Origin: a virus
IMG/VR virus record: IMGVR_UViG_3300031825_000062
Location: 1 to 26,953 of that record
Direction: 5' to 3' (one strand)
DNA: 26,953 nt
In this document: one piece after another, positions 19,535-24,181 of the stretch
Numbering within the stretch: the stretch's first letter is position 1
How the letters are laid out: each line of letters starts with the position of its first letter
The notes under the pieces: model-generated
The model's input: only the letters and a program-made list of their open reading frames with translations
The model's database searches: none
What the model was told of the DNA's origin: nothing
Position numbers and translations under genes: made by a program

Positions 19535-19894
19535 ATGCAACAACTGCAAATCCCGCCGCTGTCCGAAGGCGAAACCTATATCGGTGCTATTGGCGATAAG
19601 AACGGCGACTTCTATCACGTGATTCTGCTGCCGGGCGACAACGACGATGCGACGTGGCAAGCCCAGATGGAATGGGCAAAGTCCATCGGCGGCGACCTCC
19701 CTAGCCGCGTCGAGCAGGCAATGCTGTGGGCCAACTTCCGCGACCTATTTCAGAAGGATTGGTACTGGAGCAACGAAGTTCACCACAACAACTCCGGCTG
19801 GGCCTGGTCTCAGAACTTCGACTACGGTGACCAGGACAACTACCTCCAGTACTACGAGCTTCGCGCTCGCGCCGTCCGCAGATTGCCGATTTAA
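19535..19894 (+). CDS. DGR target protein 1 (C-type-lectin-like, DUF1566-type)
   Basis: A 119-residue protein. The N-terminal part (YIGAIGDKNGDFYHVILLPG) and centre (WAKSIGGDLPSRVEQAMLWA, then DWYWSNE) match small phage DUF1566/C-type-lectin-like proteins. Residues 88-117 are the variable repeat, beginning GWAW and ending ELRARAVRRL just before the stop. Residues 92, 94, 96, 97, 99, 101-104, 106 and 107 correspond to template adenines and would line the ligand-binding face in known DGR lectin folds. There is no signal peptide or tail-fibre domain. CGGAG sets the start. A 77-base non-coding gap before it may hold a promoter, but I see no clear one. Confidence 0.92.
   Translation: MQQLQIPPLSEGETYIGAIGDKNGDFYHVILLPGDNDDATWQAQMEWAKSIGGDLPSRVEQAMLWANFRDLFQKDWYWSNEVHHNNSGWAWSQNFDYGDQDNYLQYYELRARAVRRLPI
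19795..19885 (+). repeat. DGR variable repeat VR1
   Basis: 91 bases aligned without gaps to the template at 20919-21009. Ten differences, every one at a template adenine (TAT to TCT, and AAC to GAC three times, to TAC four times and to CTC once). The last 30 bases (19856-19885) are identical to the template and include the GC-rich initiation-of-mutagenic-homing segment. Confidence 0.96.
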
Positions 19895-19924
19895 CCCGTC
19901 ATCAATTTTCAAGGAATACCTGCA

Positions 19925-20386
19925 ATGACGATCACCCTTGAATCCATCCGAGCAGAGCACAGCCGTATTGGCGATCTGATCGCAATCTTCGAGAGACAAG
20001 CCCGGACCTCGTATGTCGTGCCTGGCGCCACCATCGAGTTGAAGCATGGCGAACGCTACGCCGGCATCGTTCTGGATGTGAATGGCGCTTTCAGCCATCA
20101 CCTGATCCTACTGCCGGGACAAGCCGATGACGTGAGTTGGACGGATGCCAGCAACTGGGCCGAACAGCAGGGTGGTTCCCTCCCGACGCGCAGCGAGCAA
20201 TCGCTGCTGTTTGCGAATCTCAAGCAGGAGTTCGAAGAGCGCGCTTACTGGTCGGGCGAGAAGCATGCGTCGAACGACGGCTGGGCCTGGTATCAGTACT
20301 TCGACCTCGGTTACCAGTTCCACAGCACCCAGCTCACCGAGCTTCGCGCTCGCGCCGTCCGCAGATTCATTCCTTCAGTAATTTAA
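19925..20386 (+). CDS. DGR target protein 2 (paralogue of target 1)
   Basis: A 153-residue paralogue of target 1 with an extra N-terminal helix (MTITLESIRAEHSRIGDLIA). The shared core runs YAGIVLDVNGAF, HHLILLPGQADDVSW, GGSLPTRSEQSLLFANL and AYWSGEKH. Residues 119-148 are the variable repeat; changed positions are 125, 127, 128, 130, 132-135, 137 and 138. AAGGA lies upstream of the ATG. It is followed closely by the avd gene. Both targets are fed by one template. The ligand is unknown. Confidence 0.92.
   Translation: MTITLESIRAEHSRIGDLIAIFERQARTSYVVPGATIELKHGERYAGIVLDVNGAFSHHLILLPGQADDVSWTDASNWAEQQGGSLPTRSEQSLLFANLKQEFEERAYWSGEKHASNDGWAWYQYFDLGYQFHSTQLTELRARAVRRFIPSVI
20278..20367 (+). repeat. 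DGR variable repeat VR2
   Basis: 90 bases aligned without gaps to the template. Thirteen differences, all at template adenines, including three AAC codons changed at both A positions (two CTC and one TTC). Identity resumes at the GAG codon (20339) through AGATT; the following base differs (C against G), marking the right border of homology. Confidence 0.96.
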
Positions 20387-20400
20387 CCATTTGATCCACC

Positions 20401-20775
20401 GTGGCACTGCACACCCAACTTCCGATCTATAAGGCGGCATACGGTCTTCTGGACGTTGTCACCGACTTGGTCAAAAACATGGCCCGCGATTTCAAGCGTA
20501 GCGTCGGCGAGAAGATCAACTCCGAGTGCATCGAGATCATGGTGCTTGTTTTCCGCGCCAATGTCGCTGTCGACAAGTCGCCGCATCTGAACGAATTGCT
20601 CGAGCGACTGCAGGTCATTGAACTGCTGTTGCGCCTGTGTATGGACAAGCGGCTGATCTCCAGGCCGGCCTATGCCAAGGCCATCGAGATCACGACCGGG
20701 ATTGGTAAGCAGGCCAACGGGTGGAAGAAGTTCGCAAATCGCCCGCTTCATGGAGGTCAAGGCCGCCATGACTGA
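20401..20775 (+). CDS. avd: DGR accessory variability determinant (Avd)
   Basis: A 124-residue, almost wholly helical and basic protein, read from a GTG at 20401. Segments such as AAYGLLDVVTDLVKNMARDF, EKINSECIEIMVLVFRANVA and LQVIELLLRLCMDKRLIS fit the four-helix Avd fold, and it ends in a basic tail (GWKKFANRPLHGGQGRHD). In the Bordetella phage DGR, Avd binds reverse transcriptase and template RNA and is essential for cDNA synthesis. Position between the second target and the template is the classical order. The stop lies inside the reading frame of the reverse transcriptase. Confidence 0.88.
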   Translation: MALHTQLPIYKAAYGLLDVVTDLVKNMARDFKRSVGEKINSECIEIMVLVFRANVAVDKSPHLNELLERLQVIELLLRLCMDKRLISRPAYAKAIEITTGIGKQANGWKKFANRPLHGGQGRHD

Positions 20776-22120
20776 GCGATCTTTCAATCTGGTCATGCCG
20801 CTGGCTCACAAGGCCACCGACAGGCGCATCACGGATACCTACGGCAGCAGCCGGGAAGCGTCCGGCGCAGTTCCCCGGCTGAGGAATCGTCCGGGCGACG
20901 TGGATAGCATGATGGATACGGCTGGGCCTGGTATCAGAACTTCAACAACGGTAACCAGAACAACAACAACCAGAACAACGAGCTTCGCGCTCGCGCCGTC
21001 CGCAGATTGGAATGGAAGGACCGCGTTCTCGTTCGTCGAGCTAGTCGAAGCATACTTCGACTGCCGGCGAACGAAGCGCAACAGTACCAGCGCGCTGCAG
21101 TTCGAGTTAAACCTGGAACACAACCTTCGGCATCTGTTCGACGAGCTGTCCGAAGGCAGCTATACGCCTGGTCGCTCGAAGTGTTTCGTCATCACGCGCC
21201 CGAAACCACGCGAAGTATGGGCTGCAGAGTTCCGCGACCGGATAGTGCATCACCTGCTTTACAACAAGATTGGGCCTCGCTTCGAGCGATCCTTCATCGC
21301 AGATTCATGCGCCTGCATCAAAGGCCGCGGCACGCTGTACGCCGCCCGCCGGTTGGAGGCGAAGGTGCGCAGCATCACGCAGAACTGGTCACGTCCCGCG
21401 TTCTACCTGAAGTGCGATCTTGCCAACTTCTTCGTCAGCATAGACAAGCACGTCTTGCGCGAGTTGCTTTTCGCCAAGATCCGAGAACCATTCCTGCGCT
21501 CGCTGACAGAGCTCGTGCTGATGCACGATCCACGGGACGACTTCGTCTACCTGGGCGATCCCAGGATGATGGATCGGGTACCTCCGCACAAGCGCCTGAT
21601 GGAACAACCCGCGCATCTCGGGCTGCCCATCGGCAACCTGTCATCGCAGTTCTTCGCGAATGTGTACCTGGACACGCTCGACCAGCGGGCCAAGCATGTC
21701 CTCGGAGCGCGGCATTACATCCGCTACGTGGATGACTTTGTGCTGCTGCACGAATCACCCCAGTGGCTCAATGCTGCGCATGACGACATCGAGGCGTTCC
21801 TTCCGCGCCGACTCGGCGCTCGCCTGAACCCGACCAAGACCATCCTGCAGCCGGTCAGCCGCGGCATCGACTTTGTCGGACAGGTTATTCACCCGTGGGT
21901 CCGCACCACCCGTCGCCGCACCGTCAATGTCGGTGAGCGGCGCCTTGCACAGATGGATGCAACCGACGTGCATGCGGCGGCAAACAGCTACCTCGGCCTG
22001 CTGCGCCAGGCAACAAGCAGCCGCGTCGACCGCGCTCACCTCGCGAAGATCATTCGCTACCGAGGGCATGCCGTCGATTTCGGCCTGACCAAGGCATACC
22101 TCCGTCCTACCAACGCCTGA
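20768..22120 (+). CDS. DGR reverse transcriptase
   Basis: The conserved domain begins at FSFVELVEAYFDC (residue 87) and continues through PKPREVWAAEFRDRIVHHLL (from 145), KCDLANFFVSID (Asp217), LPIGNLSSQFFANVY (286-) and IRYVDDFVLL (YVDD 320-323). The IGxxxSQ form of motif 4 is the hallmark of DGR enzymes rather than group II intron or retron types. It makes mutagenised cDNA from the template. The start is unresolved: no ATG, GTG or TTG exists in frame between the template and the conserved domain. It must begin at 20768 (GGAGG/AAGG upstream, overlapping the avd stop), at 20909/20912, or at a rare codon. Confidence 0.93.
   Translation: MTERSFNLVMPLAHKATDRRITDTYGSSREASGAVPRLRNRPGDVDSMMDTAGPGIRTSTTVTRTTTTRTTSFALAPSADWNGRTAFSFVELVEAYFDCRRTKRNSTSALQFELNLEHNLRHLFDELSEGSYTPGRSKCFVITRPKPREVWAAEFRDRIVHHLLYNKIGPRFERSFIADSCACIKGRGTLYAARRLEAKVRSITQNWSRPAFYLKCDLANFFVSIDKHVLRELLFAKIREPFLRSLTELVLMHDPRDDFVYLGDPRMMDRVPPHKRLMEQPAHLGLPIGNLSSQFFANVYLDTLDQRAKHVLGARHYIRYVDDFVLLHESPQWLNAAHDDIEAFLPRRLGARLNPTKTILQPVSRGIDFVGQVIHPWVRTTRRRTVNVGERRLAQMDATDVHAAANSYLGLLRQATSSRVDRAHLAKIIRYRGHAVDFGLTKAYLRPTNA
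20919..21009 (+). repeat. DGR template repeat TR
   Basis: Begins CGGCTGGGCCTGGTATCAG and contains ten AAC codons in the frame that matches the targets, then the constant segment from 20980. AAC codons cannot become stop codons by changing the adenines, the usual design of DGR templates. Both variable repeats differ from it only at its adenines. It lies between avd and the conserved part of the reverse transcriptase and overlaps the latter's open frame. Confidence 0.96.
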
Positions 22121-22130
22121 AAGGAAGCCC

Positions 22131-22448
22131 ATGACCTGGCCCATCGGAACCCCCATCAGCATGGCCGCGCGTCGAATGAATGACGACATCGCCGACCTCG
22201 CGCGCGACTCCACGGCGCTGAAGCGCGAGAACGCGGAACTGCGCCGGCAACTGCTCAGGGCGCAGGACGCCGTCGACACGCTGCGCACGGCCCACGCGAT
22301 TCAAGCGACCGAGCTGCTGAAGCTGCGCGCCGTGGTCCAGGCCGTGGCCGAAAGCGCCGACGCGCACCCGCACTGGCCGCTGCTGCGCTGGGTCCGGTTT
22401 GGGCCGGTGGCCGCCGCAATCGACGACTTCAAGAACGGGAAACTGTGA
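22131..22448 (+). CDS. Hypothetical coiled-coil protein
   Basis: A 105-residue protein starting MTWPIGTPISMAARRMNDDI. Residues about 18-70 have regular hydrophobic spacing (LARDSTALKRENAELRRQLL) and form a probable coiled coil. The C-terminus is aromatic and basic. AGGAAG precedes the ATG, 10 bases after the reverse transcriptase. No family is recognised, and there is no sign that it belongs to the DGR. Confidence 0.65.
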   Translation: MTWPIGTPISMAARRMNDDIADLARDSTALKRENAELRRQLLRAQDAVDTLRTAHAIQATELLKLRAVVQAVAESADAHPHWPLLRWVRFGPVAAAIDDFKNGKL

Positions 22449-24181
22449 TGAACACTGACAAGCAAAATGCCGACGCCAAAGTGAGCGGCTATCAGCCGGT
22501 GGGCGGGAAGATGCCGCCGCCGCCTGGACCGCAAGCCACGAGCGTGGCGCAGGAGCTGACGCGGAGCCAAATCGGGCGTGTGGCAGGCGGATGCATGGAC
22601 ACGCCGACATACAAATACTTCATGTCGTGCATCGATTGGGAACTGCGCACCATCCTCGCCCAAGCTGCACCATCTGCCGCGCCTGTGCAGGGGCTGGATG
22701 TAGCCGAGATTGCCAAAGCTGCCTGGGATGAGGCGTGGCGGATCGCTTTCAACGAAGGCATGAGCGCTGGCCATCCGCTGGGACGGAGCTACTTGGACTG
22801 CGATACGGAATGGGCCGATAGCGAAGTAGTTGCGCGCCTCGCCCAAGCCGCACCGCCTGCCGCGCCGACGAACCAGCAGATCAGCGACTACCTTAACGGT
22901 CTGGATGCCACTCAGCGAGCGATTATTGAGCGAGAAGCCCGCGCCATAGCACCGCCTGCCGCGCCTGTGCAGGATCGTGGGGATATTGCCGACGCCGTTA
23001 GCAAAGCCATGAACCGTGCGTGGCAACTCGGGCAGACGTACTGGCAGCAGGCAGACAGCGACTCCTATTCGCAGAACCGAAAGAGCAGCGAGACACAGGC
23101 TAAGTTCAATGCTCTCGTAGACGAAACGCGCGCCGCCCTACTCGCCGCGCCCCCACCGCTGACCGCTGAGCAAATACAGGACTACGAGGAGGCCGCAGTG
23201 ATTGCCGCGTCCGATGCCCCGCCCGCAGCAGAAGCCGCACCAGCTACCGGAGAATCGGGGGCGAAGCCGGACGCACGCGACTGGCTGCTTGACGTGATGG
23301 GCGATTGGGATTTCACCATCCCGACAGGTGCGTTTGACAAGATCGTTGATTACATCGTCGCCACCCCGCCCGCAGCAGAGGCCGCTAGCCAACCTGGGGA
23401 AATGGGCGCGGGGGTGCAGGTTGACGACAAGCAAACGATGTTCATTGTGAGGAAGCCCGGGTTGGTGCCGCGCCTTGGCCATCCGCTCGGGGATTTGGCC
23501 GCATCCCTGCGTGAATGGTACGAGGGCAATCCCGGCGCGGAGATCGATTTGCTCCGTGTTTGGGGGACTAGTGTCGGCACAGCATCCATTGAGGATGGAC
23601 GCGAGTGGATCTTTGACCCGGAGGCATACAAAGCCTACAAGGCCGCCGCATCGGCGCAGCAGGATGAGCGCAAATGCACGTGCGGTAGCGGCCCGGGAGG
23701 AGGTCACTCGCGGACATGCCAGATGTTCGATGAATCCATGATGCGCTATGACCCGTTCGGTCTGGCGGCGCAGCATGATGAGCGGGAGGCGCCCCCATTC
23801 ACTGGGCATTGGCGCGGTGGGAATGGCGTTATCTCGTGCGGCACCTTACGCATCTTCAGCGAAAACTTCGACACGAATCCGGCCGACCACATCAAGGCCG
23901 CCATCGTGAAATGGGTATGCGACACGCTCAATGCTGCGCAGAAGGGCCAGCAGGTGCAGGGCGGTGGCGAGGATAAGCGGGATGCGGAGCGGTGGCGTAA
24001 GGCAATTCGATACATCGGCGCTCGCTATACCGAAAACGGCAGCGAGGTGTTTTGCGTCAGCCAAATGCTGGTGGCCCTTGCTGGTTTCAGCCTCATGAAA
24101 GGCAGCGTGGCCGAGCACTTCACCAAGGCCATCGACGCCGCCCTGTCCCGCGAGCAGCCGCAAGGAGATAGCAATGGCTAA
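22448..24181 (+). CDS. Mosaic accessory protein of short modules joined by Ala/Pro linkers
   Basis: A 577-residue protein (ATG in a TGATG overlap). It is built from unrelated short modules separated by linkers such as LAQAAPPAAP, AIAPPAAPVQ, DAPPAAEAA and ATPPAAEAA. One module is Cys-rich (KCTCGSGPGGGHSRTCQMFD, a possible zinc site). One resembles a stretch common in phage accessory proteins (GEDKRDAERWRKAIRY). Linker DNA is repeated almost exactly, suggesting modules are exchanged by recombination. It is similar in style to the Ea22-like mosaic proteins of lambdoid early regions. No catalytic motif is evident. Confidence 0.75.
   Translation: MNTDKQNADAKVSGYQPVGGKMPPPPGPQATSVAQELTRSQIGRVAGGCMDTPTYKYFMSCIDWELRTILAQAAPSAAPVQGLDVAEIAKAAWDEAWRIAFNEGMSAGHPLGRSYLDCDTEWADSEVVARLAQAAPPAAPTNQQISDYLNGLDATQRAIIEREARAIAPPAAPVQDRGDIADAVSKAMNRAWQLGQTYWQQADSDSYSQNRKSSETQAKFNALVDETRAALLAAPPPLTAEQIQDYEEAAVIAASDAPPAAEAAPATGESGAKPDARDWLLDVMGDWDFTIPTGAFDKIVDYIVATPPAAEAASQPGEMGAGVQVDDKQTMFIVRKPGLVPRLGHPLGDLAASLREWYEGNPGAEIDLLRVWGTSVGTASIEDGREWIFDPEAYKAYKAAASAQQDERKCTCGSGPGGGHSRTCQMFDESMMRYDPFGLAAQHDEREAPPFTGHWRGGNGVISCGTLRIFSENFDTNPADHIKAAIVKWVCDTLNAAQKGQQVQGGGEDKRDAERWRKAIRYIGARYTENGSEVFCVSQMLVALAGFSLMKGSVAEHFTKAIDAALSREQPQGDSNG
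22668..23385 (+). repeat. Dispersed linker repeats inside the mosaic gene
   Basis: Two repeat types. CTGCCGCGCCTGTGCAGG ends copies at 22668-22691 and 22950-22973, with a shorter copy CACCGCCTGCCGCGCC at 22851-22866. CCCGCCCGCAGCAGA begins near-identical 22-base copies at 23217-23238 and 23364-23385 (one mismatch). They encode the Ala/Pro linkers, but the match at third codon positions exceeds what protein constraint needs. Confidence 0.7.

Follow-up and report, generated by a model that had tools for sequence, protein, structure and literature searches.

In the diversity-generating retroelement (DGR) of Bordetella phage BPP-1, a spacer 3′ of the template repeat (TR) recruits the complex of reverse transcriptase (RT) and Avd, and one adenine of this spacer primes cDNA synthesis (PMC12875486). 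In retrons, the stem formed by the msr 5′ end and the msd 3′ end either includes the guanosine that primes through its 2′-OH or stops just 5′ of it (PMC6868368). The DiGReF survey of DGRs described a structural group (group 3) with a TR overlapping the 5′ or 3′ end of the RT gene, as well as arrangements with varied number and position of targets (PMC3521204). The type of cassette analysed here, its multiple targets and the overlap of its TR with the RT frame are already known or annotated. In the literature that we searched, with incomplete coverage, we found no account of the Rfam RNA RT-15 forming the 5′ portion of the template RNA in a DGR, of a covarying helix that clamps the 3′ end of the TR, or of a mirror-image layout of the template RNA.

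The stretch of DNA analysed (the window) is an entire viral record of 26,953 bases and probably represents part of a temperate phage genome. Genes for capsid, portal and terminase lie on its minus strand, a DnaB-like helicase and a CI-like repressor are also encoded, and Erf-like and RecE-like recombination genes are located directly upstream of the DGR (Table 1). The host probably belongs to the Burkholderiales, since relatives of the RT occur in genomes of Cupriavidus, Paraburkholderia, Caballeronia, Pandoraea and Pseudomonas, among others, and in cultured phages of Burkholderia, Shewanella and Pseudomonas. Two matching records, OP650936.1 (Tenericutes host recorded) and OK094664.1 (Shewanella phage), are both 47,902 long with nearly equal match scores, and one of the two host records may be wrong. 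Elsewhere in the window, a tRNA gene sits among the phage genes (7903-7974, minus strand; Rfam RF00005, 66 bits), and a 578-aa frame (22445-24181, plus strand) carries several repeated Ala/Pro-rich segments and has no match in Pfam or PHROGs.

Table 1 Features of the DGR cassette, in window coordinates
Feature	Position	Strand	Description
Target gene 1	19535..19894	+	Single-domain C-type-lectin-fold protein, 119 aa; weak Pfam Lcl_C match
VR1	19795-19885	+	10 substitutions relative to the TR, every one at a TR adenine
Target gene 2	19925..20386	+	N-terminal helix and lectin-fold domain, 153 aa; weak Pfam Lcl_C match
VR2	20278-20368	+	13 adenine-site substitutions relative to the TR, plus G->C at 20368 (last base)
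avd (accessory variability determinant)	20401..20775	+	124 aa; phrog_3206 E 1.9e-28; Pfam bAvd E 2.5e-11
RT-15 RNA (Rfam RF03018)	20737..20919	+	Structured 5′ leader of the template RNA; 159.8 bits, E 9.9e-39
a1 strand	20782..20791	+	5′-UUUCAAUCUG-3′; forms the covarying helix with a2 at the TR 3′ end
G20792	20792	+	Unpaired base joining a1 to the RT-15 central stem; candidate priming nucleotide; a G in all 61 loci aligned
DGR RT	20909..22120	+	phrog_1423 E 8.6e-111; PDB 8ub7 E 7e-37; start uncertain
TR	20919-21009	+	Nested in the RT reading frame; 91 nt, 27 A
a2 strand	21003..21012	+	5′-CAGAUUGGAA-3′; last 7 nt of the TR and 3 nt beyond

A first-pass annotation made from the letters alone had read this region as a complete DGR with two lectin-like targets, avd, a template and a DGR RT, and avd and the RT are confirmed by Pfam, PHROG and PDB matches. 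AlphaFold models of both targets adopt the C-type-lectin fold (pLDDT 95.6 for target 1 and 91.6 for target 2). Among PDB structures, the target 1 model is closest to the Legionella Lcl C-terminal domain (E 2e-4, TM 0.72), and the viral matches of target 2 are DUF1566 or C-type lectin proteins, with a DUF1566 phage protein at the top. The two targets belong to a common family outside the variable repeat (VR) too, and the VR occupies the C-terminus of the lectin-fold domain in each. Judging from this fold and from other DGRs (PMC8144416), the targets may bind variable ligands. The NCBIfam match of Avd falls under its curated cut-off (48.3 vs 80), and a sequence search of the PDB with Avd gave nothing at E 0.1.

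The RT could start at the in-frame ATG codons at 20909 or 20912 or further upstream, the frame being open from 20657. Its catalytic motifs LKCD, LGLPIGNLSSQ and YVDD are intact. The closest solved structure, 8ub7, is a reverse transcriptase of 328 aa, which we take, from its length and field knowledge, to be the BPP-1 bRT. Against the NCBIfam retron model the RT scores 43.1, far under the cut-off of 235, and neither its nearest solved relative nor its PHROG is a retron RT. In an RT tree, the RTs of DGRs with an RT-15 RNA form one clade, separate from 11 RTs of the BPP-1 type. In the related phage QDWS (L089 3156-4187), the annotated RT start lies downstream of the TR and cuts away the conserved N-terminal core.

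We recovered the TR and both VRs independently of the coordinates given by the first-pass annotation, and its count of 10 (VR1) and 13 (VR2) substitutions, all at template adenines, proved correct to the base. Such a concentration on adenines would arise by chance with P 1.3e-6 for VR1 and 1.2e-7 for VR2 (hypergeometric). The sole non-adenine change had been placed at the last base of the VR2 homology and is indeed found there, and the TR/VR alignment bears out that each of the ten AAC codons differs in one or both VRs. Its 21 variable adenines and the resulting ~4x10^12 DNA sequences per target are also right; at the protein level we compute a diversity of ~2x10^12 per target (15^10 x 4). The reading as a two-target, single-template DGR is supported, as are all of its numbers, and the sequence establishes the cassette as a diversity-generating retroelement.

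Related loci with a TR, one to three VRs and small lectin-fold targets form a family of 109, a count that includes copies of the same phage, so that the loci are not all independent. Two VRs are present in 89 loci, three in 14 and one in 6, at nearly constant distances from the TR. Across the 109 loci, substitutions affect 42% of template adenines (2763/6582) vs 0.8% of other template sites (121/15364), and within AAC codons the first adenine is altered in 71% and the second in 47% of cases. Neither of the outcomes that the first-pass annotation had named as refuting its reading, substitutions scattered over non-adenine sites in relatives or an RT with damaged catalytic motifs, is seen. Two metagenome contigs (L054 and L056) are identical over ~7.38 kb but for 14 bases, all of which fall at template adenines in the middle one of three VRs. 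This pair constitutes direct evidence, at the level of sequence, of recent mutagenic retrohoming, and we regard the family as active because the two contigs differ only at adenine sites of one VR. The DGR in the phage studied here is very probably functional as well, the evidence of activity coming from these relatives. In the complete phages Magia, QDWS and SC_8_H2H8, all VRs lie outside the structural gene region, and the targets are found in the early or recombination region, which raises the question of what a phage gains from diversifying proteins away from its tail genes. In five loci (L014, L059, L088, L112 and L117) targets are located 5-7 kb upstream of the TR, and the distant target of Magia lies upstream of the recombination genes.

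The arrangement of the template RNA sets this family apart. In 11 control phage DGRs the TR follows avd at a distance of ~0-35 nt, whereas in the window 143 nt separate the avd stop from the TR. This interval is covered by a full-length covariance-model match to RT-15, well above the gathering score of 82 bits, and the RT-15 structure is also backed by covariation. RT-15 ends at the TR start in all 15 further relatives tested. On its other side the TR abuts the conserved RT core, inside the RT frame.

A conserved RT-15 segment, AAUCUG, which its own Rfam model leaves unpaired, can pair with CAGAUU at the 3′ end of the TR, and the complementarity reaches beyond the TR. In the window the resulting a1:a2 helix has ten pairs, one of them U-G. 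This helix was recognised from covariation, folding of a single sequence being uninformative: RT-15 and TR of the window, folded on their own, are no more stable than shuffled sequences (z -0.93). Among 61 aligned loci, the inner nine pairs form in 90.0% of cells vs 23-43% when the partner strand is slid, double-change cells number 62 vs 18.6 +- 4.8 in shuffles, and covariation of the helix reaches 0.290 vs 0.111 in shuffles, with 0/500 shuffles as high. These shuffles ignore kinship; mapped onto the RT tree to allow for it, pair 20785:21009, seen as C-G, U-A, G-C and A-U, underwent twelve double changes with pairing kept and one with pairing lost, i.e. ~12 independent compensatory double changes. 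Less favourably for the model, 18/61 loci lack pairing at 20786:21008. VR and TR agree as far as the helix, and their agreement then declines over its first seven bases (0.99, 0.95, 0.95, 0.81, 0.74, 0.57 and 0.35); since the two diverge inside the helix, the outer pairs are not explained by target coding. Both strands are changed in the most divergent relative, L121 (CAUUUG:CAAAUG), and phage LPPA56 apparently carries an extra base on both. A search for a like helix in 11 BPP-1-type DGRs returned only short, non-recurrent complementarities. Taken as comparative sequence evidence, compensatory change demonstrates that the a1:a2 helix of RT-15 DGRs is real.

We propose, and consider it likely, that this is a working DGR in which a 5′ leader folds the template RNA, a1 clamps the TR 3′ end and synthesis starts at that end. 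The transcript would consist of RT-15 followed by the TR, folded by the leader, with RT-15 presumably holding the RT-Avd complex and the single-stranded a1 clamping the TR 3′ end (a2). Together with the central stem (20793-20798 with 20907-20912), a1:a2 would make the TR a loop whose ends meet, and the TR 3′ end would be presented to the RT beside the unpaired G20792, between the two helices. Where no 3′ spacer is present, the TR 3′ end has to reach the RT by some other means, and this helix can provide it. We propose priming at G20792, probably at its 2′-OH, because the geometry is the same as that of the retron priming stem. That RT-15-type DGRs prime like retrons, through pairing of the leader with the TR 3′ end and the 2′-OH of an invariant G, is an analogy to which we give roughly even chances. 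Two points count against the model: retrons usually have an AGC motif at the primer whereas the bases around G20792 are CUG-G-U, and the known DGR primer, that of BPP-1, is a spacer adenine 3′ of the TR whereas the candidate here is a G of the leader. From this point cDNA would run through the TR with errors at adenines, perhaps stopping near RT-15, and the mutated cDNA would replace VR1 or VR2 and thereby alter the C-terminal face of the two small lectin-fold proteins, which could serve as binding proteins.

The a1:a2 helix and RT-15 could instead control RT translation or RNA stability, with cDNA primed by another route. The position of these elements fits such a role, as the TR and part of RT-15 lie inside the RT frame: an in-frame RT start exists upstream of or within the TR in 88/88 non-redundant loci, and in 46 of the 88 there is none between the TR and the conserved RT core. 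At least part of the TR therefore encodes RT. However, the helix ends where the TR/VR homology ends and keeps an invariant unpaired G, neither of which is needed for regulation alone, and we judge this explanation unlikely. An ordinary BPP-1-type DGR with its 3′ spacer concealed within the RT coding sequence would agree with the 11/11 control phage DGRs, in which a gap of 113-181 nt, holding structured RNA, lies between the TR and the beginning of RT homology (gaps obtained by arithmetic on coordinates, the annotated RT start being further upstream in three of the 11). In the RT family studied here, synonymous divergence just after the TR is 1.0-1.2 times expectation, vs 0.77 in the avd codons that overlap RT-15, and therefore gives no sign of a hidden spacer; nucleotide conservation also falls directly after the TR. 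A 3′ spacer hidden in the RT gene was rejected on this synonymous-site analysis, and we consider the explanation highly improbable. Less credible still is that the a1/a2 complementarity acts in DNA, as a cruciform or recombination substrate. The hairpin downstream of the BPP-1 VR does act as DNA (PMC3240598), but here 211 nt lie between the two arms, which belong to the donor TR rather than to the recipient, and the U-G wobble at 20784:21010 in 19/61 loci is as expected of RNA. That VR1, VR2 and TR are ordinary paralogous repeats diverged by point mutation, as the kinship of the targets beyond the VR might suggest, is effectively refuted by the adenine-only pattern, its recurrence across the family and the L054/L056 pair.

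The preferred reading, with the leader acting as a clamp for the TR 3′ end, assigns a physical role to RT-15, an orphan RNA of Rfam, and DGR template RNAs would then come in two mirror-image layouts, the second being a topologically permuted way to build such an RNA. Should retron-like priming hold, RT-15-type DGRs would be a mechanistic bridge between retrons and DGRs. The model predicts that swapping the pair 20785:21009 should turn the machine off, then back on. A leader-driven DGR without a spacer after its template may also be a simpler tool for targeted protein evolution.

Among known systems, Burkholderia phage Magia (MT701587) shares the gene order, RT, Avd, VR spacing (-1130/-644) and lectin-fold targets, already annotated there as possible DGR targets, with 73% DNA identity over 90% of the region. 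It differs in a third target 7.1 kb upstream, and its record marks no TR, RT-15 leader or long-range helix. The Rfam RF03018 model extends only as far as the TR start, so that it lacks both the TR and the a1:a2 helix. As in DiGReF group 3, the TR of this locus sits within the 5′ portion of the RT frame. The survey regarded the arrangement as having no bearing on mechanism, but here it goes with a different RNA fold. Bordetella phage BPP-1 has in common with it a DGR RT, avd, adenine mutagenesis between TR and VR and a lectin-fold target. However, the BPP-1 TR directly follows avd and is succeeded by a 144-nt 3′ spacer matching Rfam Phage_DGR (104.7 bits), whereas here the intervening RT-15 lies 5′ of the TR and a 3′ spacer is lacking; BPP-1 diversifies one tail protein, and this phage two small proteins encoded away from the tail genes. 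A hairpin follows the BPP-1 VR, whereas no clear one of that kind is seen 3′ of the window VRs, and across the family hairpins give a weak signal, occurring in 17/175 VR 3′ flanks vs 20/420 control windows, few of them GC-rich. In phage BalMu-1 (L132 2331-2474), the Rfam RNA RT-14 is located between TR and RT; weakly matched in three other BPP-1-type DGRs, it looks like another family of 3′ DGR spacers. Retron msr-msd RNAs resemble the present locus in a structured 5′ RNA followed by the template, an RT downstream, and a short helix between the 5′ and 3′ ends that ends beside an invariant G. Unlike retrons, the system described here has a DGR-type RT with Avd and a product homed into VRs. Relative to the textbook layout of BPP-1, the template thus appears to be held by an upstream folded leader, as in retrons.
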